DNA of 64,000 nt from contig CM049321.1 of assembly GCA_026874595.1 (NCBI GenBank), positions 1,424,479-1,488,478 of the forward strand, read 5' to 3'. The first letter of the stretch is position 1. Each line of letters begins with the position of its first letter. Positions 694-62,997 of the stretch are shown one piece after another. The stretch is from Sipunculus nudus (Eukaryota > Annelida > Sipuncula > Golfingiida > Sipunculidae). The notes under the pieces were generated by a model that worked only from the letters and a program-made list of their open reading frames with translations, had not been told where the DNA came from and made no database searches. Position numbers and translations under genes: made by a program.

Positions 694-712
694 GCGGCGG
701 CGGCGGCGGCGC
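694..712. repeat. (GCG)n microsatellite
   Basis: About six GCG/CGG triplets in an otherwise A+T-rich intron. It makes a short poly-Ala run in one open frame, which is not a gene. Confidence 0.85.
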
Positions 713-28300: not shown

Positions 28301-31300
28301 ATATTCTCCTGCCTGATTAATATTCTCCTGTCTGATTAATATTCTCCTGTCTGATTAATATTCTCCTGCCTGATTAATATTCTCCTGTCTGATTAATATT
28401 CTCCTGCCTGATTAATATTCTCCTGCCTGATTAATATTCTCCTGTCTGATTAATATCCTCCTGTCTGATTAATATTCTCCTGCCTGATTAATATTCTCCT
28501 GTCTGATTAATATTCTCCTGTCTGATTAATATTCTCCTGCTGATTAATATTCTCCTGCTGATTAATATTCTCCTGCCTGATTAATATTCTCCTGCCTGAT
28601 TAATATTCTCCTGCTGTTTAATATTCTCCTGCCTGATTAATATTCTCCTGTCTGATTAAAATTCTCCTGCCTGATTAATATTCTCCTGTCTGATTAATAT
28701 TCTCCTGTCTGATTAATATTCTCCTGCTGATTAATATTCTCCTGTCTGATTAATATTCTCCTGCCTGATTAATATTCTCCTGCTGATTAATATTCTCCTG
28801 CCTGATTAATATTCTCCTGTCTGATTAATATTCTCCTGCCTGATTAATATTCTCCTGTCTGATTAATATTCTCCTGCCTGATTAATATTCTCCTGCCTGA
28901 TTAATATTCTCCTGCCTGATTAATATTCTCCTGCCTGATTAATATTCTCCTGCCTGATTAATATTCTCCTGCCTGATTAATATTCTCCTGCCTGATTAAT
29001 ATTCTCCTGCCTGATTAATATTCTCCTGTCTGATTAATATTCTCCTGCCTGATTAATATTCTCCTGCCTGATTAATATTCTCCTGCCTGATTAATATTCT
29101 CCTGCCTGATTAATATTCTCCTGTCTGATTAATATTCTCCTGTCTGATTAATATTCTCCTGCCTGATTAATATTCTCCTGCCTGATTAATATTCTCTATG
29201 AGATGTCTTACTTGAGTTTGTCTGTGGATGGCACAGCTTCCACCCAGATGGTCGACAAAGGAAAACTCTGGTGCATGGAATTCTGGGAATGAAAAAACAC
29301 ACAAGTATCAGTATGCACTCGTTGACCCACAGTTGTGATCCTGTCACTCATGACTATAAAGTATTTCTTGCAGAACACTATATCAAACTGTAAGAACAGT
29401 ATAAATTTGTGTAAATGTTCAGAGTCAAACTTAGTATTTTCTACTGGTAGTTCTCATTTGAGGACCAAGTAACCCATGTGTTCTGAAGCCCTGCTAATCA
29501 TAATATATCCCCAGGTTTAACATAAAATGAAAACATAAGATAATATAAAATCAAACCATTATCAGTCTCATAAACCATAATTTTTTTCATATCAATATTA
29601 TTGGTTCCTTGCTAACGGACAGAGGGATGAAAGACCTACCGGTACAGCTATTCAGAATAACTGAAATAAACTAAGCTGAACATGTCAGAAGGGGCTGACT
29701 ATAAGTACCCCTCCTCATTTATAACATGACCCACTTATTAACCACCTAGTTATATAAAATTTTACCCAGTTTTATAACACTGACCATATGGTCAGATTTA
29801 TAAAATTTACCATGTTTTCAATCCAGATTTAAAAAATTTTCAACCTAAATTCATAACAATGCCAACTACATTTAATAACATTTATTTGCAAATATATAAA
29901 ACATTTACAAATAATTTGTATAACATTTGAATTGATAGCACTGAGGACCATTTTTATGGCAACATAATTTGCAGTAAAAATTCTCAATCTTGAGAAACAT
30001 TTGAATTTTACACAAACAATCTCCTCAGAGCCTTTTAGGTTACTTACATGACCATGGACGAAGACATCATTGAACAAAAGAAACCAGTGGACAGAAAATC
30101 GTCCAGCATTTGGCAAAGATAGAGGATATGTTCGACTGTCCCTCAGCATCCGACGGCTTGGAATACACAGACTGGCCTGGGAAAGTACAGATACAATGCT
30201 ATGTTACTTACTCACTCTGTATAGATACAATGCCATGTTACTTAATTACTTTGTATAGAAACAAGGGTATATTACTGAGAGTTTATTATCAACACACTAG
30301 TTTAGTTTTGCTGATTTCCTGAACTTGTTTAAAAGATTTATTAAGAAAATATATAGGAGTACATACAGAAAACAAACTACAAAAGTATATAGATAACATG
30401 TATCAGGAGAAAAATCACAAGCTACTCCACACCTGCCAAAGGTAAATCAAGGAAAAAAAGAGTAAATGCTCTGAAAAAAATATCAGAAATTTGGGTATGT
30501 CCCATTCTTGCTTTTGCTGGACTGTTAAAACAGGAGAGAAATAGTATATATCAGAATTCTTTCACAGAAAAAAAAGAGAGGAAAAAAAACAGTGCTGCTG
30601 AAAAAAGAAAGAAGGAATAAAGAGTAATTAGTGTCATTTTTAGGAAATCCTCAAAATGAAAGATCGACTCTTTTAAACTAGGGACCCATGGGTCTCGACG
30701 CTCAGCTGCATTTGTCTATAAGGATATATGTTTATGAGGTTTTCCAAAATATTGGTCCTGTGATCAGTTTGAAGCCAACCTGTCTACCCAAACTGGAGTT
30801 ATCATCCATAAACTAATTTGTGAATGGATGGGCCCTGTGACCTTAACCTTTGACCTTGTGACCCAAATATCAAAAGGAAACTTCCCCTATCGGCAGGTGC
30901 ACCACATGTTGATGATGGAAGGACTGAGATGAAAAGTTTTGCTTAAAATGCATCCACAATCTTTCTAAAGTGGTGGGTCCTGTGACCTTGATCTTTGATC
31001 TCATGACCCCAGAATCAACAGTTCTTACTTTAGTGGTGGGCAATATATATAAGTCAAGTTTAAAACCAATATTTCAAACCAAACTGGTGTTATCATCTGC
31101 CAACTAATATGTGGATAGATGGCCCACATGACTTTGACCTTTGACCTTGTGACCCCAAAATCCACAAGTTACTTCCACTATTGGCAGGTGAGCAACATCT
31201 GGAAGATAGAAGGTTTAGGACAGAAAGTTTGGATAAAATACATCAACAATCTTTTTAAGGAAGTGGGTCCTGTGACCTTTGACCTTAGGACCCCAAAATC

Positions 31301-34300
31301 AAAAGGGTTCTTACATTATTGGTTGGTCATATATAAGTCAAAATTGAAACCAATATATCGACCAAAACTGGAGTTATTATCCAGAAACAAATATTTGGAC
31401 AGATGGGCCCCTGTGACCATGACCTTTGACCTTGTGACCCCCAAATCAATCAGGTTCTTCCCCATTGGCAGCTCAGCTATATGTGCAAGATGGAAGGTTT
31501 GGGATGAAAAGTTTGGCTTAAAATGCATCCACAATCTTTCTAAATAAGTGGGTACTGTGACCTTGACCTTTGACCTCATGACCCAAAAATTTAACAGAAT
31601 CTTTCCCTATTGGCAGATTAGCAACATCTTGAAGATGGAAGGTTTGCAATGAAAAGTTTGGCTTCAAATGCATATGCATTCTTTTTAAAGAAATAAGTCT
31701 TTTGACCTTGACCTTTGACCGTTGAACCCCAAAATCGACACGGTTCTTACTTTAGTGGCGAGTCATATATAAGTTACATTTGAAACCAATATGTCAAACT
31801 AAACTGGAGTTATCATCTGGAAACTAATTTGTGAACAGATGGCCCCTGTGACCTTGACCTTTGACCATGTGACCCTAAATTCATTTATGCTCTCCCCATA
31901 CTGGCAAGTCAGCTAAATGTGCAAAATGAAAAGTTTGGGATGAAAAGCTTGGCTTAAAATGCAGCCATAATCTTTTTAAATAAGTGAGTCCTGTGACCTT
32001 GACCTTTGGCCTTGTGACCCCAAAATCATATAGGTTCCTGCTTTAGTGGTAGGCCATAAGTAAGTCAAGTTTGTAATCCATGTGTCAATACAACCTGGAG
32101 TTATCATCTGGAAACAAATTTGTGTGGATGGAAGGATTGACAGACAGACGAACAGACAGACAGACAAGGTTATTACTATATGGCATCCAATTGTGATCAA
32201 TAAACACACCAGGTTTTGGGACACTAGATGTAATAACAGCTGTGAAACTGACATGATTGTTGTCATTTTAAAGTAAAAAATAGAAAAATATTCATTAAAA
32301 TGACAAAAAATACAGGTGGTGCCAACACTTTATAGGAACTGACCAAACTAGTCATGGTCAATATTCAAGGGAAGATTCATGACAATCCATGCATTAATTA
32401 TCAAGATATTGGAGGTTTTGTATTATATTTTTGATTATTCTGGGGGGTACTTTCAAGCCCCATAGCTCCGAGGATATAGGTCACAGTGACCTAACTTCAG
32501 GTTTCCAAGGAGATTTTTTATGGACCTCCTTGGATGTTAACTTAGAAGTTTCTAGGACCAGCAGTTACGATTTGTGCCCTGCTAACGGACGGCCGGCCGG
32601 ACGGCCGGACGGACGACGGACAAAGCGCCATTCCTATACCTCATTTGACATTCAGTCAGCTGAGTTAAAAAGAGTGATACGGCAGGCCTGTACAGGGCTG
32701 GTACAAAGTCAGATATTGTATTGGTAGATGCCTCTGTATCAATATGTCAAAGATAAACGACCATCCAACAGAAAGTCTGACAATCAATGAGCCAATAATA
32801 GTCAGCAGCAGCAGCATGTAAGGCAAAACATCATTGGTAAGAAATCAGTTAACTGACATCTGATTGGCTAACTACGGCCATATCAAACCAATTAAAGTGG
32901 CTATTTCATTATTCATTATTTTTTAAGCATGAAGGTCACAGTGTGAACTGTGTATAGATCACTTGAATTCTAATCATAAGTTGATACCACTTAAATGTAT
33001 TGTTTTGTGAGTTAAGTTTCACGATATCATGTTGTGAGACAATGTATTATTACAGCCCTATTAAGCTCCCTATTTGTTTCCATAGTAAGCGAATTCTGAT
33101 GCCACTTAGGTTCGAATGTGTCGAATCAAAAACCTGAGAATATAAGTTCCTGAACCTGTGTGACTCAGAGCAAACAAAGCTTTCCTCTAGAATCAATTCT
33201 GCTGACTTCAAAAGCAAGTTTGCTAACTCAATATATAACTATGATATTATCATGCACTAAAACTTGCTTGAAAAGTTAACAGAGGGAAAACATAAAATAT
33301 CTTTTTACACTGATATACAATTCAATTAGAAATGAAATACATATATTTATAAATCAGCTTGCATGTTAAGCTGATAAACAAATGCAGAATGATTTATTTG
33401 AAAAATCATAATACAATTTTAATCAGGAGATTTAGAGGATTGGTTAACATTTATGTCCATCTGAACTTTGGTAAGTCATCATGAAGTCACCAAGGTCTGG
33501 TGACCTCTGACCTCATTAGATATATATGGATTTTTCTGTGAAATGGACTTGGGTGAGATATTATATTTATTAATATTTCTGTTGAGTTTCATAAAAAAAT
33601 CCATCATATTCCTGATAAGTTATTGCAGCAACACCACAAGGTAGACATGTGACCTCTGACCTCATTGAATATGTGTGGATTTTGAGATAATCTAATGGTT
33701 AGAGGTCATGGTGAGGTTTGTGAAAATCCATCAAACCCCTGGTAAGTTATCGCAGCTAACTCAAAGTTAACTGATGGACACAGATGGACTGTGGGTATAC
33801 CATAATGCATCCTGACAGATGGGCGTATATAAACACACATAAGGAAAATATACTAAAATAAGAACTTACAGCAAATTTGGTTGGACAGGAAGCCCAGAAC
33901 TGTTTGCTGGCCTCAGCGTTGCCATGTTCTTTGCTTGCTTTGTTCTTCAAGCTGTCCCAAACTTGATATGCTTTCCTTAATGAGGCATGGAGAGTGCTCT
34001 CCTGTCAAAGAGGAGAACATAGTTCAGTAAATGTTCTTTAGATGATACCAATACAAATTTTAGTAGGAAAAATTTCAAAACTCTCAAATATAGAAATCAC
34101 TAAATATGCATGTCCATAGATAACCTATGATGATTTAAATGGATATGGATTAGCATTAAATTTCAATATCTGAAGTCATTAAAATGGATAAGCATAACAT
34201 ATGAAAAGTCCTATAGAAAAAGTATCTGTGAGATGAAAATGTCAGATATGTCATGCAAGTGTGTCTTATCAGCAAATAGTAAAACTGGACTAGATTTTAA

Positions 34301-55300: not shown

Positions 55301-57003
55301 GGACGCTGTGCAAAAATGGTTGCAGTTGGCCCCTCCATTTTGTGTATGATAAAGAGCTATGTGAGATCTACACACATGCAAAACTTTGGCCAAATCGTTC
55401 AAACGGTTTCTGAGATATGAGCTTGGAAGTCTGCAGCATAAACTAGAATGTAGGTGGGGCCACCTGTCATAAAATCAAGAAAGCTGTCCAGGATGTATAA
55501 ACCAGCAAAATTTTAGGCAGATATGTCAAACCACTGCCAAGATATGAGTGAATTACTCCCATGGCAGACAAACAGACGGACGTTGTGCAAATATGGTTGC
55601 AGGTGGCGGCACCAATTTGCGTATGATAAAGAGCTATGTGAGATCTACACACATGCAAAATTTTGGCTAAATCTGTCAAACGGTTTCCGAGATATGAGCT
55701 TGGATGTCTGCAGCGTAAACTAGAATGTAGGTGGGGCCACCTGTCATAAAATCAAGAAAGCTGTCCAGGATGTATGAACCAGCAAAATTTTAGGCAGATA
55801 TGTCAAACCACTGCCAAGATATGAGTGATTTTATCCAATGGCAGACAAACAGACGAAGGCTATGCAAATATGGTTGCAGGTGGCGGCACCAATTTGCGTA
55901 TTATAAAGAGCTATGTGAGATCTATACATATGCAAAATTTTGGCCCAATCGGTCAAGCAGTTCCCGAGATATGAGCTTGGATGTCTGCAGTGTGAACATG
56001 AATGTAGGTGGGGCCACCTGTCATAAAATCAAGAAAGCTATCCAGGATATATACGCATGCCGAATTTCAGGTGAACTAGTCAAACCACTGCAGAGATATG
56101 AGTGATTTTAACCCAAGGCAGACGAACAGATGGACACTGTGCAAACATGGTTGCAGGTGGCACCACCATTTTTTGTTTATGTTATAAAGCTATCCAAGGG
56201 CTACATTTGGACAAAATGTTTTTCCTGATCTGTCAAATGGTTCCCGAGATATGTGGGTTTATGTGTGGAAACAGATGCACAAATGGACGCTAGGCAGAGA
56301 GGAAAGGTCAGATGTCAACGCCAACTGGTAATGCACCAGTTCACATGTGACCCGATAATTGGTGTAAGTTTCGGAAAAATCAGTCCAGTAGTCTCGTCAG
56401 AGTTCTCTGGAAAACAACGCCGAGGCGGGGGGCGATGGCAGAACTTGGTCAAAAACATAGTATCCGCAAATCTTCATTTTTTTGGCTGGCACAATAATTA
56501 TAATTTACAGCCTCCCTGTCTCCACTTTTACATATTTTACAATGTTATCCATTTAACCAAAGTGCATGGAATGGATTTTTCTTTCTTCCTTTTTTAATGA
56601 TTGTTCAATGGCCTGTAGGTGCCGCTGTCTGCTGAATGAGGATGAAGGTTTTCATATGACAAGAGTGATATGTTAACAATGTTTAGAGAGGATTAATGCT
56701 TTTATTGGACCATGTCCAAATCCTCAGATAATAGTAGTATACTAAACCAGTGATACAATTATCTCACCTGAGAACGTATGGACATACTGCGGCTGTGACA
56801 GACAGTCATGTAAATGACCAAGTCCAAGCTGGCCATGTTGATTGGCTCCCAATGTAAATAACTGATGATCCCTGGTCAAGAAAGCACAATGACCAGTCCC
56901 CAGCGAGAGCTTCACGACGTGAGTCTGTGTGAATACAGGGAACAGTCTGGGCTCCACCAGTGTCCCTCCCTTCCACACGTGGATTCTGGCCGGCTCCAAA
57001 TCT
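1224..57003 (-). CDS. ALS2: Alsin (ALS2) gene, 23 internal exons; 5' exon and VPS9 end missing
   Basis: Alsin is a cytosolic, endosome-associated exchange factor for Rab5 (MORN plus VPS9) and is linked to Rac1 signalling (DH/PH). Joined in transcript order, the exons are 57003-56768, 54943-52913, 51293-51195, 46664-46556, 46201-46105, 44652-44575, 44075-43969, 43196-43130, 42799-42628, 41516-41431, 37881-37709, 37206-37041, 34001-33870, 30176-30048, 29282-29212, 27526-27460, 23387-23185, 16129-16064, 14856-14764, 14260-14094, 13367-13258, 4017-3940 and 1360-1224. All junctions are GT-AG and all phases fit, giving 1,557 open codons. Domains by codon of this partial frame: RCC1 blades about 1-230, linker about 230-800, RCC1 blades about 810-920, DH about 955-1140, PH about 1195-1290, MORN about 1325-1540. 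Known alsin then has a VPS9 domain, which would lie beyond base 1. The initiator exon was not found above 57003. The linker is longer than in human alsin. Identity rests on domain order and motif matches, not a database search. Confidence 0.95.
1361..2046. repeat. Intron with two dispersed repeats
   Basis: About 1495-1835 is a copy of a dispersed repeat marked by CTTGTGACCTTTGATCTCATTAAATATG and CACCACAAAGTAGCC. Related copies are near 23820, 33425, 46262 and 51820. About 1855-2000 resembles 40485-40620 (GTGTTTACTAACAG...GTAGATAAACAAG). A degenerate head motif, GTGACCCATGGGTCATGACG, occurs near 2000. Confidence 0.6.
2047..3915 (+). mobile_element. Head/tail repeat family, copy 1 (decayed tail)
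   Basis: It begins with ACAAGGGACCCATGGGTCAC at about 2047 and ends after a (GGAC)n tract (3848-3872) and ACCACGACTATAGCTCAGAG, a decayed form of the family tail hairpin. The interior shares long blocks with the copies starting at 4951, 7638 and 38295, for example GAGGAAAGGGGCCCTCCTAC near 2162. No coding capacity is visible. The subterminal inverted motif GCTCAGCTG/CAGCTGAGC, the microsatellite and the 3' hairpin recall bivalve pearl and Helentron-associated elements. That assignment is inference. Confidence 0.7.
3940..4017 (-). CDS. ALS2: ALS2 exon: MORN repeat
   Basis: A 78-bp phase-0 exon, acceptor TATTCAG and donor GTAAGT. It encodes GVGLILTEDDTCYEGEFAGG, matching [20 protein letters not shown]. 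Between this exon and the previous one is a 9.2-kb intron filled by tandem copies of a mobile repeat. Confidence 0.96.
4375..4755. repeat. Two-unit tandem duplication, ~195-bp period
   Basis: GACCGCCAAGGCTCTGTCCT with GGTCTGTCCCCTGACAATG at about 4387 recurs as GAACGCCAAGGCTCTGTCTT with GGTCTGTCCCCTAACGTTG near 4583. The same downstream order follows in each unit (AATTCAGGTAC, ATTTACTTGGT, TTCTCAT). The units are clearly diverged. This is intronic ALS2 sequence. Confidence 0.75.
4951..7637 (+). mobile_element. Head/tail repeat family, copy 2 (tail missing)
   Basis: It starts with the head AACAAGGGACCCATGGGTCA and runs 2,687 bp. It stops where copy 3 starts, at a point that corresponds to about 10120 inside copy 3. 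It is therefore a direct tandem duplicate of most of the element, without its own tail. Compared with copy 1, it carries an internal ~75-bp duplication around 5985-6075 (GTTGCAAAAGTTGCAATCAT twice). Confidence 0.75.
7638..10700 (+). mobile_element. Head/tail repeat family, copy 3 (complete)
   Basis: The head ACAAGGGACCCATGGGTCAC lies at 7638. The tail has an ACGG-rich tract (about 10583-10645), then CACGACTATAGCTCAGATGA and the hairpin arms AGCTCAG...CTGAGCT, ending CTAA near 10700. It lacks about 200 bp near 8967 that copy 2 has (about 6290-6475). It contains a 16-G run at 9136. No transposase or helicase frame is visible, so it is non-autonomous. Confidence 0.78.
10701..13257. repeat. Intron: unique DNA, then short degenerate repeats
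   Basis: 10701-11640 shows no gene. Near 11560-11625 a segment ends CAGCTTAAAATGGAGAATTTACGG, the inverted counterpart of TACCGTATATTCTC...TTAAGCCGCA at about 4055, so this is a dispersed repeat. 11640-12175 holds degenerate tandem units of the type AGCAGAAATCATGTGGGTCA and TATTAATATTCATGG. 12190-12860 is another dispersed repeat with GACCTTGAAGATCAAGGTCA-like phrases, bounded by ATATGTCTCCCC blocks. Confidence 0.55.
13258..13367 (-). CDS. ALS2: ALS2 exon: MORN repeats
   Basis: A 110-bp exon, acceptor TATTTCAG and donor GTGAGT, phase 1 in and phase 0 out. It encodes KYMGMWQDGNRHGNGIIVTL, then YFEGNFVMDR. This is nearly the same as KYMGMWQDDVCQGNGVVVT...YYEGNF in human alsin. Confidence 0.97.
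14094..14260 (-). CDS. ALS2: ALS2 exon: MORN repeats
   Basis: A 167-bp exon, acceptor ATTCGCAG and donor GTAACA, phase 2 in and phase 1 out. It encodes YSSGDTYEGHFVQGKRFGHG and YLGEWRDDRRCGYGVLDDIQ, which align closely with two consecutive alsin MORN units (ASGEVFEGCFQDNMRHGHG and FIGQWVMDKKAGYGVFDDI). Confidence 0.96.
14764..14856 (-). CDS. ALS2: ALS2 exon: MORN repeat
   Basis: A 93-bp exon, acceptor TTTTACAG and donor GTGAGT, phase 2 at both ends. It encodes MIPSGDQQEIQTGNWKEGLL, then HGFATVK. This equals the diverged alsin MORN unit with YVGHWKEGKMCGQGVYSY. Confidence 0.9.
15445..15910 (-). pseudogene. Dead LINE fragment: RNase H and ORF2 C-terminal region
   Basis: On the minus strand, about 15905-15800 encodes GNEEADRMARLG, the GN-E-AD-x-x-A block of LINE RNase H domains. 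About 15640-15457 encodes AVEHVLQDCRNHQPLRKEIW, then ATPTMAREKLYSP. This resembles the EHILQSCP...LRRQTWP segment at the C terminus of invertebrate LINE ORF2 proteins. The pieces fall in different frames (HTRLNQHMYR appears in another frame near 15650) and are separated by stops. It is a frameshifted remnant in an ALS2 intron. Confidence 0.65.
16064..16129 (-). CDS. ALS2: ALS2 exon: MORN repeat
   Basis: A 66-bp exon, acceptor TGTTTCAG and donor GTAAGT, phase 2 at both ends. It encodes GVLEWNDGKKYEGHFKENMM, a clear MORN unit matching [20 protein letters not shown]. Confidence 0.95.
16491..16503 (+). repeat. Left target-site duplication of the LINE
   Basis: AAGTTCATTTCTA here is repeated exactly at 22734-22746, after the poly(A) tail. 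The first AA may be shared with the tail. It marks the 5' insertion boundary. Confidence 0.9.
16597..17496 (+). CDS. LINE ORF1 protein (L1-type nucleic-acid chaperone)
   Basis: About 299 residues from the ATG at 16597 (MPPKGKRGRGG). An in-frame ATG at 16579 would add six residues. A basic N terminus and an acidic Ser-rich stretch lead into a coiled coil (about residues 75-150, including LKLEQRVKELEIKLE). An RRM-like core follows, with RHSREYNVRVKGVKE, EVAHRIG and RHIIVRLFSRED. The C-terminal domain has ARFTRGRLIIDGKQV. These match the L1 ORF1p (Transposase_22) pattern: trimeric RNA-binding chaperone. No stops or frameshifts are seen. Upstream DNA up to 16504 acts as the element's 5' UTR. Confidence 0.88.
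   Translation: MPPKGKRGRGGEKASESESSETIEAYLTRETESLSDDQGQMAEASPTELGTLERRLTDLITRVASGIKAECKKIRDEFTEKFDSLKGLQTSLEFTQAQVKELGEDKLKLEQRVKELEIKLENNQRELLVYKGEIREKLNQIERHSREYNVRVKGVKEEKGENVRQKVVKALEKQGAGRADMLSEKIEVAHRIGPWKDNRDRHIIVRLFSREDRQELLTKTKRRGPGGKNMVTEDLTKMDLALKKKAIPLMNEAHANNQKARFTRGRLIIDGKQVPIEQSRVGETASQGSDIPTIGNVTS
17497..18890 (+). other. LINE inter-ORF region, ~1.4 kb, no clear ORF
   Basis: This stretch separates ORF1 and ORF2. It is A+T-rich, and the small open frames in it (18369-18599 and 18527-18880) match nothing I recognise. It is much longer than the short spacer of typical L1 elements. A short open stretch (about 18843-18890) runs in frame into ORF2 and reads DFNVLS before the first Met. 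Confidence 0.6.
18891..22560 (+). pseudogene. LINE ORF2: endonuclease and reverse transcriptase, one frameshift
   Basis: The frame from 18891 runs to a stop at 21758 (955 codons) and then continues in the next frame (21739-22560), giving about 1,220 residues in all. AP endonuclease: MNVRGF, LQET (near residue 30), GGDWN, DYFLIS and SDHSSI. Reverse transcriptase: KNKSPGNDGLSSEYI, NWRPISLLNTDYK, LLTIDYEKAFDTLEW, GVRQGDPLSPYLFI and the catalytic LTLYADDTT, then LQMNKDKTEAMWLG. The C terminus, after the frameshift near 21735-21758, has CRYCQLHIEDYAHLFLRC, a Cys-Cys-His-Cys motif usual in L1-like ORF2. The shift falls beside a T-run and could be real or an assembly indel. ATG 18891 is chosen because it sits at the expected start of the endonuclease. 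Confidence 0.92.
22702..22733 (+). terminator. LINE polyadenylation signal and poly(A) tail
   Basis: AATAAA at 22702-22707 is followed at once by a run of about 25 A. The tail ends at the right copy of the 13-bp target-site duplication. Confidence 0.88.
22734..22746 (+). repeat. Right target-site duplication of the LINE
   Basis: AAGTTCATTTCTA, identical to 16491-16503. Confidence 0.9.
23185..23387 (-). CDS. ALS2: ALS2 exon: PH end and first MORN repeat
   Basis: A 203-bp exon, acceptor ATCTTCAG and donor GTAAGC, phase 0 in and phase 2 out. It begins ADWLWALQDAIYKAV, the C-terminal PH helix (KWLRAISQAVDQAL in alsin). It ends KDAKYTGAWHNGVMHGQ, the first MORN repeat. The next intron contains the L1-like element. 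Confidence 0.96.
23388..24240. repeat. Intron with a dispersed GACCTCTGACCTC repeat
   Basis: 23388-23815 shows no gene or recognised repeat. About 23820-24065 is a copy of the dispersed family with GGTGACCTCTGACCTC and CTATACCATAATTTGACTC at its end. Copies near 33815 and 52845 end in GGGTATACCATAATGCATCC. 24070-24140 is GACTC-rich low-complexity sequence. Confidence 0.55.
24241..27085 (+). mobile_element. Head/tail repeat family, complete copy with internal duplication
   Basis: The head AACAAGGGACCTATGGGTCA is at 24241. The tail is an ACGG tract at about 26986-27042, followed by CCACGACTATAGCTCAGATG and the CTGAGCTAA hairpin end at 27085. The interior differs from copies 1-3 at its 5' part. 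Its 3' part holds successive related ~650-bp blocks, marked by ACGTGCC/ATGTGCC with GGGCAAAATTTAAGGTAC near 25280, 25800 and 26480. No coding capacity. Confidence 0.75.
27086..28136. other. Intron flanking the exon at 27460-27526
   Basis: 27240-27380 is degenerate GGACTTGGACTC-type low-complexity sequence. 27527-28136 shows no gene, RNA or repeat that I recognise. Confidence 0.5.
27460..27526 (-). CDS. ALS2: ALS2 exon: PH domain
   Basis: A 67-bp exon, acceptor ATTGACAG and donor GTAAAT, phase 2 in and phase 0 out. It encodes NAIKLMMPEETLILTTPDTQ, equivalent to [20 protein letters not shown] of alsin. Confidence 0.93.
28137..29196. repeat. Minisatellite, ~57 units of 18-19 bp
   Basis: An uninterrupted head-to-tail array. 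The unit is CTGTCTGATTAATATTCTC or CTGCCTGATTAATATTCTC. An 18-bp variant, CTGCTGATTAATATTCTC, lacks one base. Only a few units have other point changes (for example ATCCTCC near 28455 and GTTTAAT near 28615). Units differ mainly at one T/C position, so homogenisation is recent. The array ends 15 bp before the ALS2 exon at 29212-29282, inside the intron just after that exon's donor. Confidence 0.97.
29212..29282 (-). CDS. ALS2: ALS2 exon: PH domain
   Basis: A 71-bp exon, acceptor ATTCCCAG and donor GTAAGA, phase 0 in and phase 2 out. It encodes HQSFPLSTIWVEAVPSTDKL, matching [20 protein letters not shown] of alsin. Its donor lies only 15 bp from a 1-kb minisatellite in the following intron. 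Confidence 0.94.
29283..30047. other. ALS2 intron, no feature seen
   Basis: A+T-rich sequence. Loose repeats of TTTATAAAATTTACC type occur near 29750-29850. No exon, RNA gene or mobile-element end is recognised. Confidence 0.45.
30048..30176 (-). CDS. ALS2: ALS2 exon: PH domain start
   Basis: A 129-bp phase-0 exon, acceptor TTTCCCAG and donor GTAAGT. NAGRFSVHWFLLFNDVFVHG is nearly identical to [20 protein letters not shown] of human alsin, the beta strands that open its PH domain. Confidence 0.97.
30677..32668 (+). mobile_element. Composite element: family head, DR1 array, GGTG module, family tail
   Basis: It opens with GGGACCCATGGGTCTCGACG and CTCAGCTG at 30677. Nine ~145-bp units containing GTGACCTTGACCTTTGACC follow (about 30830-32110), then a GACAGACAGA tract. 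Next comes one GGTGGTGCCA module (about 32310-32570), with a GGCCGGACGG tract at 32589-32618. The end is CATTCAGTCAGCTGAGTTAA near 32668. Treating all this as one element is inference from the shared termini. Confidence 0.55.
30830..32200 (+). repeat. Nine-unit tandem array with DR1-like motifs
   Basis: The units lie near 30840, 30978, 31130, 31272, 31412, 31556, 31702, 31848 and 31993, about 145 bp apart. They alternate in type, giving a ~290-bp higher-order period (TTATCATCTGGAAACTAAT versus GCTTAAAATGCATCCACAAT). Perfect TGACCTTTGACCT occurs at 31135-31147, 31273-31285, 31420-31432 and 31564-31576, with one-base variants in other units. Confidence 0.85.
32669..33869. repeat. Intron with dispersed GACCTCTGACCTC repeat
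   Basis: 32669-33420 shows no gene. About 33425-33815 is the best-preserved copy of the dispersed repeat with GGTGACCTCTGACCTCATTA. It ends GGGTATACCATAATGCATCC at 33793-33812, 57 bp short of the ALS2 exon at 33870. Confidence 0.6.
33870..34001 (-). CDS. ALS2: ALS2 exon: DH-PH junction
   Basis: A 132-bp phase-0 exon, acceptor TTTGACAG and donor GTAAGT. It encodes ESTLHASLRKAYQVWDSLKN and ends SKQFWASCPTKFA. It is helical and basic, in the place of alsin residues linking the last DH helix to the PH domain. Support is good splice sites and phase with modest similarity. Confidence 0.87.
34301..36924 (+). mobile_element. Head/tail repeat family, complete copy
   Basis: The head AACAAGGGACCTATGGGTCA is at 34301. 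The tail is (GGAC)n at about 36837-36878, then CCACGACTATAGCTCAGATG and CAGCTGAGCTAA ending at 36924. Its first ~600 bp match the element at 38295 (GAAATGAGGCACATGCTGGT and TGAATACATTTTGAAAGTAT). Its 3' part matches the copy ending at 27085. No coding capacity. Confidence 0.77.
37041..37206 (-). CDS. ALS2: ALS2 exon: end of DH domain
   Basis: A 166-bp exon, acceptor TATTTCAG and donor GTCAGT, phase 2 in and phase 0 out. LQRLFQIPLHRIKDYCSHLS matches [20 protein letters not shown] of alsin, the conserved last DH helix (P-x-x-R-x-x-x-Y) of RhoGEF proteins. Confidence 0.94.
37709..37881 (-). CDS. ALS2: ALS2 exon: DH domain core
   Basis: A 173-bp exon, acceptor TTTGCAG and donor GTGAGT, phase 0 in and phase 2 out. 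It encodes helices including LDRYIAAFQHFVRSFCNTLA and GGFQYCGK. These match [23 protein letters not shown] in alsin. The acceptor and first 54 bp of this exon are repeated exactly 120 bp upstream in the intron. Confidence 0.93.
37828..38067. repeat. 120-bp tandem duplication across a DH-exon acceptor
   Basis: The sequence at 37828-37947 is repeated at 37948-38067 with an exact 120-bp offset and few changes. The first unit holds the last 54 bp (plus-strand order) of the ALS2 exon 37709-37881 and its acceptor. The second unit holds an identical 54-bp pseudo-exon start and acceptor at 38001-38003. Confidence 0.92.
38295..40315 (+). mobile_element. Head/tail repeat family, complete copy
   Basis: The head AACAAGGGACCTATGGGTCA is at 38295. 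The tail has GGACGGCCGGACGG at about 40245, then CCACGACTATAGCTCAGATG and CAGCTGAGCTAA at 40315. The first 620 bp match the element at 34301. From about 38915 it matches copies 1-3, so it looks like a recombinant of two subfamilies. A 13-G run lies at 39456-39468. Confidence 0.78.
41045..41255. repeat. (ATT)n / (TTATT)n microsatellite
   Basis: Irregular ATT and TTATT repeats spanning about 200 bp in the intron upstream of the exon at 37709-37881. Confidence 0.8.
41431..41516 (-). CDS. ALS2: ALS2 exon: DH domain
   Basis: An 86-bp exon, acceptor TTTTACAG and donor GTGAGC, phase 1 in and phase 0 out. It encodes DMYRKLETNQKEGPALIVLM, then DAFTHLTGK, an amphipathic helical segment in the position of the second DH helices. 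The next exon acceptor is locally duplicated. Confidence 0.87.
41630..41910. repeat. Dispersed repeat with GCAGACCTCCGCCGAGG
   Basis: It begins GAAAAGCACTCAGAGAGTGC and AGACCTCCGCCGAGGAAGCT. It ends near AACCCCCGCCACTAGGCTTGGCCGAGTAAC. The G+C-rich ends in A+T-rich intron DNA suggest a mobile repeat. Only one copy lies in the window, so boundaries are uncertain. Confidence 0.45.
42628..42799 (-). CDS. ALS2: ALS2 exon: start of DH (RhoGEF) domain
   Basis: A 172-bp exon, acceptor TTTTTTAG and donor GTGAGA, phase 0 in and phase 1 out. EERAFFLQLQRISDKILQPF matches the first DH helix of alsin (ERRFYSKLSDIKSQILRPL). A Gly-rich insert (GGGPFSGAICGPPGT) precedes it that I do not recognise from vertebrate alsin. 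Confidence 0.93.
43130..43196 (-). CDS. ALS2: ALS2 exon: RCC1-DH connector
   Basis: A 67-bp exon, acceptor ATTTTAG and donor GTAAGG, phase 2 in and phase 0 out. It encodes GDSPSKTDIPPVSYFTK. There is little recognisable homology beyond the SKT...P stretch of the alsin connector, so the exon rests mainly on splice sites and phase. Confidence 0.8.
43270..43577. mobile_element. Small inverted-repeat (MITE-like) element, ~308 bp
   Basis: TGGTTCTCAGGCAC at 43270-43283 is the exact inverted complement of GTGCCTGAGAACCA at 43564-43577. The interior is A+T-rich with no coding potential. A clear target-site duplication was not found, so this could be a chance or internal palindrome. Confidence 0.5.
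43969..44075 (-). CDS. ALS2: ALS2 exon: last RCC1 blade
   Basis: A 107-bp exon, acceptor GATCACAG and donor GTAAGT, phase 0 in and phase 2 out. It encodes LSAGSHHTVILGD, then QVFFSGKASG. This corresponds to IAAGRDYSLFLVD...LYYSGR, the closing RCC1 blade of alsin. Confidence 0.92.
44575..44652 (-). CDS. ALS2: ALS2 exon: RCC1 blade
   Basis: A 78-bp phase-0 exon, acceptor ACTTACAG and donor GTAAGT. It encodes VFVWGDNSEGQLGVTG, a canonical RCC1 strand equivalent to VYSWGSNTFGQLGHSD in alsin. Confidence 0.93.
44653..46104. repeat. Intron with two dispersed repeats
   Basis: About 45205-45260 (GGCCTGTAGGTGGCACTGTCT, then GAATGAGGATGAAGGT) recurs at 56608-56660. About 45545-45980 (TACTTTCTAACAACACC, ACAAGCATGGCTCGC, ATACAGGAAATGA) recurs in diverged form at about 63020-63430. 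No gene is seen besides the flanking exons. Confidence 0.6.
46105..46201 (-). CDS. ALS2: ALS2 exon: RCC1 blade
   Basis: A 97-bp exon, acceptor GTTTTCAG and donor GTCAGA, phase 2 in and phase 0 out. It encodes GKKVVKVVAGANHVAALTGD, the AGxxHxxALT signature of an RCC1 repeat, matching DGKEVIHLEAGGYHSLALT of alsin. Confidence 0.93.
46202..46555. repeat. Short intron occupied by a dispersed repeat
   Basis: About 46262-46540 is a diverged copy of the GTCTTGTGACCCCTGACCTC family (compare 1495, 33425, 51820), with the phrase CACCACAAAGTAGCC and CATCAAATTCCTGGTAA. Confidence 0.55.
46556..46664 (-). CDS. ALS2: ALS2 exon: RCC1 blade (TEVWTWG)
   Basis: A 109-bp exon, acceptor GTTTTAG and donor GTGAGA, phase 1 in and phase 2 out. 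It encodes TEVWTWGSGQLGQLGHGD, nearly identical to the TEVWTWG...GQLGHGD blade where RCC1 homology resumes after the linker in human alsin. Confidence 0.95.
46665..48190. other. Large intron, left part, no gene seen
   Basis: Open frames at 46819-47040, 47260-47553 and 47692-47895 match nothing recognised and lack supporting features. No mobile-element ends are identified here. Confidence 0.45.
48198..49255 (+). repeat. GGTGGCGCCACC tandem-module element, copy 1
   Basis: It starts near ATATGGGTAGTCGACAAGCG and CTATGTGTATCCGCAGAAAT. It contains three to four ~300-bp units with AGGTGGCGCCACCTGTCATA, AAATCGAGAAAG, TATGAGTGATTTTATCCC and GCAGATGAACAGATGGA. It ends in GTGTGGAAACAGACGCACAA and AGGAAAGGTCAGAGGTCAAC. 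Related elements lie at 55110-56490 and 57490-58665. No coding capacity. Confidence 0.75.
49256..50404. other. Intron DNA with one GGTGGCGCCAC module
   Basis: A single diverged module with TGTAGGTGGCGCCACTAATA lies near 49692. The end at about 50100-50160 is GGACGGCGGA-rich. No gene or other feature is recognised. Confidence 0.45.
50405..51099. mobile_element. 695-bp inverted-repeat element flanked by TATACA
   Basis: The left end TGTTGAGGGAAGAATGTGAA and TCTGG (50405-50429) is matched in inverted orientation by the right end, ATTCTCATTCTTCCCTCAACA (to 51099). The hexamer TATACA lies immediately outside both ends (50399-50404 and 51100-51105), a likely target-site duplication. Inside are many degenerate AATTCTCATTCTTCCTGGGA words in both arms. 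No transposase frame. It is probably a non-autonomous DNA element whose superfamily I cannot name. Confidence 0.75.
51195..51293 (-). CDS. ALS2: ALS2 exon: basic linker segment
   Basis: A 99-bp exon, acceptor CCCAACAG and donor GTGAGT, entered and left in phase 1. The product is basic (QRSRSMALGH, then NASLPSFKKPV). The LSLPS-like stretch resembles the Arg/Ser-rich segment just before the second set of RCC1 blades in vertebrate alsin. Support comes from the phase match with both neighbours and intact splice sites. Sequence conservation alone is weak. Confidence 0.8.
51294..52912. repeat. Intron with dispersed repeats
   Basis: About 51825-52215 and 52735-52850 are copies of the GTCTTGTGACCTCTGACCTC family. 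The second ends GGGTATACCATAATGCATCC. Between them (52220-52730) is DNA with no recognised feature. Confidence 0.55.
52913..54943 (-). CDS. ALS2: ALS2 giant exon: RCC1 blades plus Ser/Thr-rich linker
   Basis: A 2,031-bp exon, open throughout. The acceptor is TTCCACAG and the donor GTGAGT. About the first 150 codons are RCC1 blades, with motifs CGDSHSAAV, VYCWGNSSLGQCG, CGKDHTVSV, LWVWGLG and CCGEKHTAVLV. The remaining ~520 codons are low-complexity, rich in Ser, Thr, Glu and Asp, and probably disordered. Two cysteine clusters stand out. KCQKC followed by a short spacer and CIITDHHRC matches a Cys-rich stretch at the same place in vertebrate alsin. A second cluster, CIVCDSPENNQRGCQCLHLC, looks lineage-specific. 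Several long plus-strand open frames here are shadows of this exon. Confidence 0.95.
55110..56490 (+). repeat. GGTGGCGCCACC tandem-module element, copy 2
   Basis: It starts at AGAATACGGGTAGTCGATCA and CGTGTATCCTCCAAAATC. About four ~300-bp units follow, with TGTCATAAAATCAAGAAAGC and GCAGACAAACAGACG. It ends with AACATAGTATCCGCAAATCT, a decayed version of the 3' hairpin seen in copy 3. No coding capacity. Confidence 0.75.
56608..56660 (+). repeat. Dispersed repeat fragment
   Basis: GGCCTGTAGGTGCCGCTGTCT, then GAATGAGGATGAAGGT, matching about 45212-45260. Confidence 0.6.
56768..57003 (-). CDS. ALS2: ALS2 exon: first RCC1 blades
   Basis: The first exon recognised. The acceptor is TTACAG on the minus strand, and the donor is GTGAGA directly after TTCTCAG. 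The exon opens with one base that completes a codon from an upstream exon and ends in phase 1. The product includes HVWKGGT, equivalent to the HIWQAG region near the alsin N terminus, and LFTLGANQHGQLGLGH, a canonical RCC1 blade strand. The start codon must lie further upstream. No convincing short ATG exon was identified between here and base 64000. Confidence 0.9.
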
Positions 57004-57489
57004 CTGTAAATGATTCAGAAAATAAGAGTTACCTTAAGCATGAAAATAACATTAGATATTACTAAATACATGAGATAACATGGGTTGGGACCAGGTACAT
57101 GTGGCAAAACAAAGGTACAAGTACCTGTCCAGGTACAGGTCAATAGATAGATACAGGGCTTACACAGAGTAAAAGTACAGGTACTTCAGAAAATACCTTA
57201 GTACAGATACACATAATTTTAATGTTATGAAAATTACACAGAAAACATTCAGAAAAAAAAATTTTCATTATTTTTATAGTTAATCACTGCCCACAAGTGC
57301 TGTATCACTGAACAAGTGACCCATGGGTCATGACGCTCAGCTGACTGGGAAGAGATTCGCAAAAGGAAATTTTATCACCAGAATGGTAGTATATACCCAT
57401 TCAACTGAAGCATCAAACAGATTAACCAACAGGCCAAGATTTAGTCTGTATTTATATATCTCAAAAATAGAGAAAAATGTGTAAACTTT
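57004..57489. other. ALS2 intron upstream of first recognised exon
   Basis: GTACAGGTAC-rich short repeats lie at about 57090-57210. A head motif, AACAAGTGACCCATGGGTCA then TGACGCTCAGCTGA, is at 57311-57344 without an obvious matching tail. No initiator exon is recognised. Confidence 0.45.
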
Positions 57490-58665
57490 TAAAACTAGAA
57501 TACGGGTAACCGACAAGTGACTACATGTATCTGCCAAAATCGGATAGTGAGGCATGGATTGAGTGGCAAGGGGAAATAGAGTGAGGTATGTTGCATATTA
57601 GCATGGATGTCTGCAGCCTAAATGTGTATGTAGGTTGTGCCACCTACCACAAATCCAGAAAGCTGTCCAAGTTGTATACACCTGCAAAATTTTAGGCAGA
57701 AAAGTCAAACCACTACATGTATATGAGCCATTTTTGCCCATGGCAGACAAACAGACAAACACTGTGCAAAAATCTTTGCAGGTAACCCCTCCAGTTTTGT
57801 GTATGATGAAGACCTATGTGAGATCTAAACACATGCACAATTTTGGCCCAATCGGTCAAATGGTTCCTGAGATATGAGCTTGGATGTGTGCAGCGTTAAC
57901 TAGAATGTAGGTGGCGCCACCTGTCATAAAATCAAGAAAGCTGTCCACGATGTATAAACCTGCAAAATTATAGGCAGTTATGTCGAACCACTACAGAGAA
58001 ATGAGTAATTTTAGGCCACGACAGACTAACAGACAGACGCTGTGCAAACATTGTTACAGGTGGCGCCACCATTTTTTGTGTATGTTACAGAGCTATCAAA
58101 GGGCTACATTTGTATAAATTTTATTTCCTGATCGGTCAAACGGTTCCCGAGATATAAGCTTGGATGTCATCAGCGTGAACGTGAACGTAGGTGGCGCCAC
58201 CTGTCATAAAATCAAGAAAGCTATCCTGGATGTATACACATGACGAATTTCAGGTGAATTAGTCAATTCACTGCAGAGATATGAGTGATTTTAACCCAAG
58301 GCAGATGAACAGATGGACACTGTGCAAACATGGTTACAGGTGGCGCCACCATTTTTTGTGTATGTTATAAAGCAATCCAAGGGCTACATTTGTTTCAATT
58401 TTATTTCTTGATCGGTCAAACGGTTCCCGAGATATGAGGGTTTATGAGTGGAAACAGACCCACAAATGGACACTGGATAGAGAGTAAAGGTCAGAGGTCA
58501 ATGCAAATTGGTTAGGCACCAGTTTACATGTGACCCGATAATAGGTGTAAGTTTGGGAAAAATCGGTCCATTAGTCTCCGAGGAGCTCTCTGGAAACGAA
58601 CGCCGCCGCGGCGGAGGAACTCGGTCAAAAACATAGTATCCGCAAAACTTCGTTTTGGCGGATAC
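57490..58665 (+). repeat. GGTGGCGCCACC tandem-module element, copy 3 with intact 3' hairpin
   Basis: It begins at TAGAATACGGGTAACCGACA and TGTATCTGCCAAAATCGG. It holds about four ~300-bp units with GTAGGTGGCGCCACCTGTCA. It ends GGAACGAACGCCGCCGCGGC-like text and a hairpin at 58636-58665. The head TGCCAAAATC and the hairpin arm TTTTGGCGGATAC form subterminal inverted repeats. No coding capacity. Confidence 0.77.
58636..58665 (+). repeat. Terminal hairpin GTATCCGCAAAAC-TTC-GTTTTGGCGGATAC
   Basis: Left arm GTATCCGCAAAAC and right arm GTTTTGGCGGATAC are complementary apart from one extra base, with a TTC loop. It sits at the 3' end of the module element. Confidence 0.9.
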
Positions 58666-60067
58666 AAAAATACAGGTGGCTCCACCAGTCTGCAAAAACT
58701 AATAAAAACACTTAATGGTCAATATCCATGCAAAAAATCATGGTGATCTCTGCATTAGTTGTTCAGATACTTCAGTTTTTGTATCAAATTGTCCATTATT
58801 CTGAGGGATACTTCGGAGTCCTATAGCTTGAAGGATATGGGTAACAGAGACCTAATTTCAAGTTTCCACAGGCACCTTTCATGGGCCTCCTTGCATGACA
58901 AGAATGAAGATTCTAGGTCCAGTTGTTGCGATTTGTACCCTGTTGACAGATAACCACATCTTTAAAGGTCTCAAAAAAAAGAAAAAAATTCGTAAAAATT
59001 TGAAAAAAAAATAGAGGTGGCACACCCAGTCTGCAGAAACTGATGGAACAGCTCATGATCAATATGTATGCCGAAAATCATGACCATCAGTGTTGTAGTT
59101 ATTGAAATACTGCAGTTTTTGTATCAAATTTTCCATTATTCTGGGGGGGGGGGGGTATTTTGGACCCATACAGCTTAAAGAATATGGGTAACAGAGACCT
59201 AATTTCAAGTTTCCATGGAGACTTTTCATGGGTCTCCCTGTGTGTCAAGAATAAAGATTCTTGGTCCAGTTTTTATGATTTGTGCCCTGTTAACAGATGT
59301 TCATATCTTTAAAGGTCTCAAAAATACAGAAAAATTTCGTAAAAAAACGAACAAATACAGGTGGTGCCACCAGTCTGCAAAAACTTATGAAACACTCCAT
59401 GATCAATATCCATGCAAACAATTATGGTTATCTCTGCATTAGTTGTTCAGATACTTTAGCTTTTGTATCAAATTTTCCATTATTCTGATCTGTACTTTGG
59501 AGTGCCATAGCTCAAAGGATATGGGTAACAGAGACCAAATTTCAGGTTTCCATGGAGACTTATCATGGGTCTCCCTGTGTGTCAAGAACGAAGATTCTAG
59601 GTCCAGTCGTTACGATTTGTACCCTGTTGACAGATAACTACATCCTTAAAGGTCTCAAAAATGGAGAAAACAATTCGTGAACATTGAAAAATACAGGTGG
59701 CGCCACCAGTCTGCACAAACTGATGAAACATCTCATGATCAATATGTATGTCGAAAATCATGACCATCAGTGATGTAGTTAATGAGATATTGAAGTTTTT
59801 GTATGAAATTTTTGACTATTCTGGGGGGTAATTTTGGGCCCCATAGCTCGAAGGATATGGGTAACAGGGACCTAATTTCTGGTTTCCATGGAGACTTTTC
59901 ATAGGTCTCTCAGTGTGTCGAAAATGAAGATTCTAGGTCCAGTTATACGATTTGTGCCACGCTAACAGATGACAGCATCCTCAGAGGTCTCAAAAATAGA
60001 GGAAAAAATCGTAAAAAATCAAACAGTACAGGTGGCGCCACCAGTCTGCAGGAACTGATAGAACATC
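58666..60067 (+). repeat. ACAGGTGGCGCCACCAGTCTGC tandem modules, left part
   Basis: Units of about 335-345 bp begin near 58672, 59013, 59357, 59692 and 60027. Each has CCACCAGTCTGC, then TCATGATCAATATG, GGATATGGGTAACAGAGACC and GATTCTAGGTCCAGT. The last unit is split at 60067 by the inverted-repeat element and resumes at 62343. A G13 run at 59143-59155 replaces a shorter G run in sister units. Confidence 0.85.
60059..60067 (+). repeat. Left 9-bp target-site duplication
   Basis: TAGAACATC directly outside the element start. It is repeated at 62334-62342. Confidence 0.9.
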
Positions 60068-62333
60068 GGCAATAAATAAAACTCGGAAGTCGGAAGTCGG
60101 AAGCCCTCGGAAGTCGGAAGCCGTTTTATATTTTAGTATAATTTTAAAAATAACGAACAAATGGACAAGTTTTTGTGTTAAAACGGAAGATATAGACACC
60201 CTTTTTCATACGAGAAAGTTTCAAAGATATATATTGATATATATGAAAATTTAAGCATAATTAATGCGTCGGAAGCCTCTCGGAAGTCATCCTGAAGTGA
60301 CAGATCATGCTCAAAATGCATAAAACTTGGAAGTCAAGCCACAGTATACCAACCGACAACGACACAAAAAGGGTCTTGCATCAACCCAAATATTAATTTA
60401 GGTAATATTTATGTATTTGAATAAAATCATAATGTATATAACTAACAAAATAATATATGCATTAACCCAAAAATTAATTTAAGTGATATTAATGTATTTG
60501 AATAAAATCATAATGTATATAACTAACAACATAATATATAAATTCATATTAAAATATAAAACATGAATATAAAATACTATAATTATAAATAAAAAAAAAA
60601 TAAAATACAATACAGATTTGTTTTGGTATTCTCTATTTTTTTCATTGAACAAATACATATATGATGCAAAATATAATTACATAATACAAGTATAATAAAA
60701 TGTATACATAATGTGTTAAATAACACAGATGACGATATAATTATATATTCATTCAACATCGATATAATTTGATATTAAATTATATTATATGATAAAATAA
60801 ATATTAAAAAAGTACATTATAATCAATATTCCTATATTAAGTAAGACCAAATTATATAAGTCAATATAAATTAATATATGAAATGATTAAATTGTATATA
60901 ATATGATTATTTATATATCCATTCATGTATGTGATAATTTATCTCCTCCACCTAGGGAGTTATTCTAACAAATAAAAAGGATAACAGATGGCAGAAAAGA
61001 ATTTAGATGGCGATTCCTCCTATTAGTTGTAACTGATAATTATCTAAAGATAGTTTATGTCGTTACCTTAAAGGCACACGCGTTTCATTGTTCTTATTGC
61101 CTGATCCCCAGTTAGCACAAACATTTTATGAAACTGTTCTTAAAATGTTTCCGAAACAGTATGTGGCTTTAAAGTGTAAAATTTAAAAATGATCTCTGGA
61201 ATCATATAATAATGTAATATCCTTCCTACATAAATTGTTTTGATTAAGCTAAAATTGAAATATAAAGATACTGTTATAATTTATATCAATATTTTTGCAA
61301 CATCACATGCCTTTTTTTCAATCTTTCACAGTTATGTAGTTTTACATATTTTTAAATTTTCGAAATATTTTGGAAGTGTTTTTATAATGGTTTATGCAAA
61401 TTGTCTGTGCAATGATCTAAAAATGTTTCCTGATACGTTGGGTGATCAGTATTCAACAAGCATTGGAGAGTTATATGCGTTCCATATAAAGCAACCTAAT
61501 GCATGGATAAAAATTAGTTTCATTTATATGTATATAGCACCCTAATGGATAAAGAAGAATAGTTTTATTAATACAAAACTTAATGGACTTTTCTTACGGT
61601 TTTACCAGTTCCTGCAAGGATGCGACAGTTTGATAATTTGCTAGTTTTTTACATTAATATACAAATTTATGTATTTATCAAATATTTGAATATTATTATG
61701 TAAAAATATTATAATACAAATTAATTTAGAATACTTAACTTTTTTTATATGATAAAATATTCTTATCTATTTTGTTATATAAGGAAAAAAATTATCACAC
61801 CTTTTTGATAAAATTACGAAATTTTAAAAGCTTTTATATTATATTTATTAGAAATAACATTCCATATTAAAATATTTCGTCGCGATATGATATATAATGT
61901 ATTACATTTGAATGCATATTTCAACATTTATTTTTTCTATTTTATATATTATTATGTTTAATTAGTAATATACATTATGGTTTCATTCAAATACATAAAT
62001 ATAACTTAAATTAAAATTTGGAATTATGCCAGACTTTTTCTGTGTCATTTTTGGTTGGTGCTATATGGTCTTGACTTCCGAGTTTTATGCATTTTGAACA
62101 TCATCTGTCACCTCAGGATGACTTCCGAGAGGCTTCCGACGCATTAAAAATGCTTTGATTTTCATATATGGGAATATACGTTTGTGCGACTTTCTGGTTT
62201 TGCAAAGGGGGTCTATATCTTCCATTTTAACACGAAAAAGTGTTGGTATAATCGTTATTTTTAACATTATATCAAAAATTATAACGGCTTCCGACTTCCG
62301 AAGGCTTCCGACTTCCGAGTTTTATTTATTGCC
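60068..62333. mobile_element. 2,266-bp Mutator-like (MULE) non-autonomous element
   Basis: The termini are GGCAATAAATAAAACTCGGA and its exact inverse, ending TTTATTTATTGCC. Inverted similarity continues for at least 300 bp (60068 to about 60378 against about 62024 to 62333), including CGTCGGAAGCCTCTCGGAAG with its inverse. It appears to extend into the A+T-rich part, where ATTTATGTATTTGAAT is matched inversely near 61985-62000. Each tip carries several CGGAAGT words. The 9-bp duplication and long inverted repeats fit the Mutator superfamily. No transposase is seen. The longest inner frame (61240-61545, 101 codons) is unrecognised and hydrophobic. Confidence 0.87.
60377..60545 (+). repeat. Two-unit tandem inside the MULE-like element
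   Basis: AACCCAAATATTAATTTAGG, then TGTATTTGAATAAAATCATA and ATGTATATAACTAACAA, is repeated with an ~88-bp period. Confidence 0.8.
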
Positions 62334-62342
62334 TAGAACATC
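62334..62342 (+). repeat. Right 9-bp target-site duplication
   Basis: TAGAACATC, identical to 60059-60067. Confidence 0.9.
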
Positions 62343-62997
62343 TCATGATCAATATACAGTATATGCCAAAAATGAAGACCATCAGTGATGTAGTTATTGA
62401 GATATTGAAGTTTTTGTATGAAATTTTTTACTATTCTTGAGGGTACTTTGGGGCCCCATAGCTCAAAGGATATGGGTAACAGAGACCTAATTTCTGGTTT
62501 CCAAGGAGATTTTTCATGGACCTCTCAGTGTGTCAAGAATTAAGATTCTAAGTCCAGTCTTTATGATTTGTGCCTTGTTAACAGATGTTCACATTTTTAA
62601 AGGTCTCAAAAATAGAGAAAAAAATTCGTAAAAAATCGAAAAATACAGGTGGCGCCACCAGTCTGCAGGAAGTGATGTAACATCTCATGATCAATATGTA
62701 TGCCAAAAATCATGACCATCAGTCAAGTAGTTAATGAGATATTGAAGTTTTTGTATGAAATTTTTGACTTTTCTGGGGGGTACTTTGGGGCCACCTAGCT
62801 CGAAGGATATGGGTAACAGAGACCTAATTTCTGGTTTCCAAGGAGATTTTTTATGGACCTCTCAGAATCCCAAGTTACAAGGTTCTAGGTCCAGCGGTTA
62901 CGATTTGTGCCTGGTTAACGGACGGACAGACGGATAGACGGACGACAGACAAAGAGTGATCGCTATAGCTCAGATGACTTTCAGTCAGCTGAGCTAA
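62343..62997 (+). repeat. GGTGGCGCCACC modules, right part, with shared tail
   Basis: It resumes the split unit (TCATGATCAATATACAG...) and adds one more unit from about 62645. The array ends with GGACGGACAGACGGATAGAC and CTATAGCTCAGATGACTTTC, then AGTCAGCTGAGCTAA at about 62997. This is the same tail that closes the GGGACCCATGGGTCAC family. Confidence 0.83.

Follow-up and report, generated by a model that had tools for sequence, protein, structure and literature searches.

The window analysed here is a 64,000-nucleotide stretch of the Sipunculus nudus genome. A DH domain of the ALS2 type lies at about 37-38 kb on its minus strand (Pfam DH_ALS2, E = 5.1e-11, and DH_Alsin, 5.6e-10, with two putative exons joined), and RCC1 repeats occur at 52.8-55.0 kb and 56.7-57.0 kb. 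Given this combination of domains, it is likely that an alsin-like gene on the minus strand spans much of the window. Two of six peptides gave a domain match and four gave none, and a PDB search with a host-gene peptide returned 0 matches. A 120-bp unit is duplicated in tandem (90%) at 37828-38063, where it overlaps a putative exon of the alsin gene and its flank. The window also carries a non-LTR retrotransposon (16564-22560, plus strand) with an endonuclease, a reverse transcriptase (E = 4.4e-44) and, in a further frame, a zf-RVT piece; its first frame is coiled-coil-like, without a Pfam match. A minisatellite with a 19-bp unit (56.5 copies, 96% matches) occupies 28130-29196. Among these features lie the repeat-bearing elements listed below, grouped by their ends into F1 (the AGCTCAGCTGA-type end signature), F2 and F3, together with the R5 repeats.

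2051-3906, minus strand: E1 (F1); from the 3' end (2051) onwards, a short 3' region, then A2, the C core and a microsatellite; 5' end truncated, with the subTIR lost
2000: partial extra 3' end near E1, 51 bp from E1's own
4956-7642, minus strand: E2 (F1); module A adjoins the 3' end; 5' part (tail) missing; abuts E3
7643-10703, minus strand: E3, complete F1; module A, A2 and two C units
24246-27089, minus strand: E4 (F1); a 3' region of its own and three C-type units
30681-32671, minus strand: E5 (F1); one G1 (GGTGG) unit on the 5' side, the DR1 array and a separate microsatellite on the 3' side
34306-36928, minus strand: E6 (F1); module B adjoins the 3' end; two C units
38299-40319, minus strand: E7, chimeric F1; E6-type module B followed by A2 and C of the E1-E3 type
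38905-38916, minus strand: E7 junction, a stretch matching both parents (microhomology)
57316-63000, minus strand: E8 (F1); array of 336-bp G1 units (58666-60067, 62334-62922), broken by F2c and a TIR transposon
62963-63000, minus strand: 5' end of E8 (the "tail" of the preliminary description); subTIR and inverted-repeat hairpin, adjoined by a GTCC-type microsatellite at 62917-62944
57316-57343, minus strand: 3' end of E8 (the "head" of that description); subTIR and perfect palindrome GTGACCCATGGGTCAC
48190-49258, minus strand: F2a, of a second family resembling HINEs, recognised at its 3' end; GGTGGCGCCACC boxes in units of 277 bp
55104-56497, minus strand: F2b; both ends recognised by profile
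57486-58671, minus strand: F2c, an F2 copy nested in the G1 array of E8
1-758, minus strand: F3; 326-bp repeats that include the GGTGGCGCCACC box; 5' end weakly F2-like; truncated at the window edge
1473-1807, 23812-24003, 33456-33767, 46234-46534 and 51811-52141, plus strand: R5 repeat family, with TGACCTCTGACC-like sites

Element ends and their polarity

The preliminary description had proposed that a single pair of ends, a head and a tail, bounds a series of elements, and these ends are real: matches far exceeded expectation and resolved into E1 to E8, whose eight 3' ends and seven 5' ends all lie on the same strand, where chance would produce near none. In a scan of the 64-kb window, the head motif (28 letters, at most 10 mismatches) matched 11 times on the plus strand against 0.1 expected, and once on the minus strand (position 43998, 10 mismatches) against 0.05 expected. 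The tail motif (38 letters, at most 14 mismatches) matched six times on the plus strand against 0.0 expected, and its six minus-strand matches were the same near-palindromic hairpins read backwards. Profile searches placed all eight head matches and seven of the eight tail matches on the plus strand, the remaining minus match being E8's own palindrome. The head-tail pairs have the coordinates given above for E1 to E8, with the ends of E4-E8 paired by order. With the head at 2000 (partial) and those at 13611, 14568 and 42837 (weak) set aside, a head stood directly before every tail, as it does in 8 of 6435 random orders of eight heads and seven tails (p = 0.0012). Heads without a tail of their own were those at 2000 and 4956 and the three weak ones; CAAG precedes two of these three weak head-like sites, which are possibly decayed solo 3' ends.

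The ends had, however, been assigned the wrong way round. Read on the minus strand, the tail begins with TTTTAGCTCAGCTGACTATAAGTCATCTGAGCTATAG followed by GTCC-type repeats, and the head ends in CAGCTGAGC..GACCCATGGGTC..CTTGTT. Two published accounts of HINEs describe a 5' end made up of a subTIR, an inverted repeat close to it and a microsatellite; at the 3' end, a palindrome follows the subTIR (PMC7492417, PMC4067079). Since the order of features fits this layout on the minus strand, head and tail should be exchanged, i.e., the tail is the 5' end and the head the 3' end. The 5' end of F1 reads TTTTAGCTCAGCTGA...TCATCTGAGCTATAG, followed by the GTCC-type microsatellite; its hairpin arms, AGCTCAGCTGAC..GTCATCTGAGCT, fold at -10.6 kcal/mol (as DNA), and the subTIR is kept in six of seven 5' ends, E1 having lost it. 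The 3' end has CAGCTGAGC and then a palindrome around GACCCATGGGTC and CTTG followed by TT, with a weak predicted hairpin (-1.8 kcal/mol). CTTGTT terminates eight of the nine 3' ends, E5 having CTAGTT. Most of the nine carry the GACCCATGGGTC type of palindrome, GACCCATAGGTC occurs in E4, E6 and E7, and the perfect 16-bp palindrome GTGACCCATGGGTCAC occurs at 2000 and 57316. The inverted motif GCTCAGCTG/CAGCTGAGC, which the earlier description had reported for head and tail, is indeed present subterminally at both ends. Its lead towards Helentron-associated or pearl elements was likewise supported, as these HINE features were found: subTIRs at both ends, a 5' inverted-repeat hairpin, a tetranucleotide microsatellite, central tandem repeats (optional in HINEs) and a 3' palindrome.

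The ends of F2 differ from those of F1 in having a GTATCCGCC-type subTIR, and the 277-bp units of F2 carry two boxes. Profile searches found an F2 3' end in all three copies, a 5' end in F2b and F2c, and no 5' end in F2a, and matched the F2 5' profile weakly to F3 at 698-758 (E = 9.9e-3). The R5 repeat can be read as a HINE, and two of its copies precede microsatellite-like and TATACCATAAT-like sequence (by reading); the sole further match of the R5 profile was an R5 fragment at 52727-52803 (6.7e-8). Also by reading, 41640-41920 has a palindrome-like GCACTCAGAGAGTGC and CCTCCGCC on the left and a ACAGACAAACAG tract on the right, in the same orientation as the other elements, and is possibly a further HINE-like element.

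Canonical Helitrons have a 5' TC, a 3' CTRR after a hairpin and an A-T target, and lack subTIRs. F1 was not placed among them, as it starts with Ts, ends in CTTG in eight of nine cases (CTAG in E5) and has subTIRs; it also differs in its apparent T-run targets and in its 5' hairpin with a microsatellite. Shared with canonical Helitrons are the presumed rolling-circle, single-strand transposition, a 3' hairpin and an apparent lack of target duplication, and the CTAG of E5 and the TTCTAG with which F2b and F2c terminate (by reading) are like canonical ends.

By its published description, Cg_HINE of Crassostrea gigas has the same 5' subTIR, inverted repeat and microsatellite, short tandem arrays, and 3' subTIR and palindrome, and inserts into T-rich sites without duplication; its group 2 comprises two elements whose flanks are related but whose repeats are not (PMC7492417). 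Its monomers are described as averaging about 140-180 bp, versus 277, 336 and about 600-670 bp here (PMC7492417). Bivalve pearl elements, later re-classed as non-autonomous Helentrons, likewise have short central arrays, with repeats described as about 160 bp long (PMC7492417). The DINE-1/HINE elements of Drosophila and a mite show the same end layout, a T-rich target, a variable number of terminal Ts and nearby copies, and they have autonomous Helentron partners, whereas none is known here (PMC4067079).

Insertion sites

T is present at the junctions of both F1 ends. Across six flank pairs, with E3's 5' flank paired to E2's 3' flank because later recombination was assumed, the summed longest shared word was 19 against a shuffled mean of 19.3; duplication was thus not beyond chance. 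The TCAGT shared by the flanks of E8 is probably due to chance. The only empty site found in the window is a paralogous one and belongs to F2c, not to an F1 copy; its flanks, once joined, match uninterrupted G1 junctions and show no target duplication. The G1 array of E8 is also interrupted by a TIR DNA transposon (60068-62333; arms 60068-60458 versus 62333-61944, 81%) with a 9-bp duplication, TAGAACATC (by reading), so duplications can be detected here where they exist. The length of this duplication recalls Mutator-like elements.

These observations bear on an older view of pearl and DINE-1 elements, in which E1 to E8 would be cut-and-paste DNA transposons of the MITE type, bounded by short inverted repeats and filled with tandem repeats. 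Both ends do bear short inverted motifs, and DINE-1-like elements were once classed as MITEs (PMC4067079). However, the motifs are subterminal, the ends are asymmetric, with a hairpin and microsatellite at one and a palindrome at the other, and the six flank pairs share no words beyond chance, in contrast to the 9-bp duplication of the TIR transposon in the E8 array. We accordingly regard an origin of F1 as a MITE or TIR DNA transposon as highly improbable.

Repeat cores and module exchange

In E1-E4, E6 and E7, the core adjoining the 5' end is built of C units, each about 600-670 bp long; in E5 and E8 it consists of 336-bp G1 units, which contain GGTGGCGCCACC. When the box was masked and the C profile was lengthened on its microsatellite side, the profile matched G1 at E = 3.4e-10 (best control, 0.023) and a G1 unit away from the element end at 3.3e-7. 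The unextended C profile matched G1 at 1.1e-4 (best control, 0.037) and the G1 profile matched C at 5.4e-6 (best control, 0.16), the controls being five 64-kb sequences, i.e., the reversed window and four shuffles. Matches so far beyond the controls indicate, as judged from sequence, that the C and G1 cores are one diverged lineage. Plain consensus alignments with the box masked (21 pairs, both strands, 200 shuffles each) also made C-G1 stand out (z = 3.8), along with G2a-G2b (3.6), G1-R5 (3.1) and C-G2b (3.0), while G1-G2, G1-G3 and G2-G3 reached z of at most 1.1; a value of 4.1 for G3 versus reversed DR1 was taken as chance. Profile searches moderately supported G3-G1 (4.6e-4) and extended C-G2 (2.7e-4), weakly supported G3-G2 (0.019) and G1-G3 (0.038), and did not support G1-G2 (0.12) or G2-C (0.19). 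A special role for the GGTGGCGCCACC box, e.g., as a protein-binding box kept across unrelated repeats, was unsupported, as many windows are equally conserved: 13-column windows at least as conserved as the box numbered 79 of 323 in G1 (six units), 38 of 138 in G2a (nine units) and 7 of 118 in G2b (nine units).

The 3'-proximal modules differ: E2 and E3 have A, E6 and E7 have B, E5 has the DR1 array, and E1, E4 and E8 each carry something else; module A contains a C fragment (2.2e-14, profile search). Thus, of the very different interiors seen in the preliminary description, the parts adjoining its head do differ but the repeat cores by its tail (C and GGTGG types) are homologous. The cargo it took to be interchangeable, of the 4951/7638, 34301 and GGTGGCGCCACC types, shares one diverged core and is not three unrelated cargoes, although the 3'-proximal module varies. 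Cargo with unrelated ends of its own, which that description would have counted against a common set of ends, was found in part: the 277-bp GGTGGCGCCACC arrays have their F2 ends, and DR1 has its own microsatellite inside E5.

The DR1 array of E5 (30786-32124) holds six exact copies of TGACCTTTGACC, the only plus-strand ones in the window, and is followed by its own ACAG-type microsatellite (32139-32166). With a microsatellite of its own, DR1 looks like part of another element and not like bare captured repeats, so that E5 looks like an F1 element containing much of another element; a 3' end of that other element was not found within E5. A true exchange of cargo, in which unrelated tandem arrays were independently captured between one pair of ends, has been proposed for the group 2 oyster elements and is published for Cg_HINE_3 and _6 (PMC7492417). 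The DR1 profile would agree with it, having no match outside its own array below E = 0.1 in the 64-kb window. We nevertheless consider such exchange unlikely, since the C and G1 cores are homologous and the DR1 array bears its own microsatellite; unlike in Cg_HINE group 2 (PMC7492417), the cores are related here and it is the 3'-proximal part that changes.

The swapping of ends or modules, previously called plausible but unproven, now has direct evidence in E7, while E5 is suggestive only. By BLAST, E7 is 91.1% identical to E6 over 621 bp and 89.3% identical to E1 over 1311 bp. Its 150-bp windows up to 38948 are 90-94% identical to E6 and those from 38899 are 87-96% identical to E1 and E2; in the shared core from 39599, E6 reaches only 75-85%. 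The E6-type and E1-type matches overlap at 38905-38916, and a short AAATT-like stretch there is common to all three sequences. Since both partners are cut internally, the alignments are direct evidence that E7 joins E6's 3' module to a body of the E1-E3 type, at microhomology. As one copy with one breakpoint, E7 is compatible with template switching, composite transposition, repair or recombination.

Mosaics might instead have been made after insertion, by chromosomal nesting, unequal recombination and deletion. Nesting is common at this locus, with F2c and the TIR transposon inside E8 and E3 abutting E2's core. E2 and E3 are 96.9% (1331 bp) and 95.2% (1169 bp) identical, E3's 3' end meets E2's core within a T-run (minus strand), and the pair could result from E3 having inserted into E2, followed by recombination between their direct repeats. 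In E7, however, clean flanks and a single F1 3' end and a single F1 5' end surround the internal join, as would be expected of a transposed chimera, although a single copy is no proof. We hold post-insertion rearrangement to be the less probable source of the mosaics.

Probably, then, E1 to E8 are copies of one non-autonomous Helentron (HINE) family on the minus strand in which the 5' end and core are stable and the 3' part is swapped. By analogy with the family, a Rep/helicase/endonuclease encoded by an autonomous Helentron at another site in the genome would nick the T-run at the 5' end, one strand would be peeled off by rolling-circle replication until stopped at the 3' subTIR and palindrome, and this strand would be joined into a T-rich target, which would not be duplicated. 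As the ends alone would suffice, the interior would be free to change. In the sequence, the 5' end and adjoining core are of one lineage, while the 3'-proximal module varies between copies. Exchange could arise by template switching, or by missed termination and composite transposition between neighbouring copies, the last two being capture routes given for DINE-1/HINE in PMC4067079. No autonomous partner was seen in the window, where the longest open reading frame overlapping the element stretches is 143 aa. Rfam at gathering scores and the tRNA search gave 0 matches, as did exact-pattern scans for relatives in viral, bacterial and archaeal contigs, collections that say little here. A literal literature search with the GGTGGCGCCACC box and the DR1 string returned nothing related among the titles. 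The elements make up a mosaic set that is new but belongs to a known kind; for oyster, unrelated repeats between related ends have already been published (PMC7492417).

Uniform orientation

Unexpectedly, all 17 family loci (eight F1, three F2, F3 and five R5) share one orientation, which is also the sense orientation of the alsin-like gene (minus strand). Apparently independent insertions of HINE-like copies, whose ends are of two or more unrelated kinds, thus point in the same direction along 63 kb. GACN-type tracts, a family-independent proxy, numbered 17 on the plus strand at about 11 loci and two on the minus strand, one of which falls within the RCC1 reading frame. If the 12 copies for which one or both ends were recognised are treated as independent, p is 0.0005 (two-sided), although independence is weakened by E2/E3 and the nested F2c, and the test was chosen after the pattern had been seen. 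Cg_HINE, by comparison, occurs in both orientations genome-wide (PMC7492417). The orientation of single-strand IS200/IS605 transposons is reported to follow replication direction (PMC5371812). That Helentron insertion similarly follows local host polarity, i.e., the direction of the replication fork or of transcription, is a speculative proposal that we would not favour at present, and transcription-linked selection may equally be the cause. If the proposal is true, rolling-circle elements would record fork or transcript direction in animal genomes. The uniform orientation offers a concrete genome-wide test of replication- or transcription-guided single-strand rolling-circle insertion in animals.

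The window therefore adds a corrected polarity, homologous cores, the E7 chimera and a uniform orientation to what is described for such elements. Within one locus, it suggests how a HINE family may diversify, with a stable 5' end and core and with 3' modules replaced at microhomology or by inclusion of part of another element.
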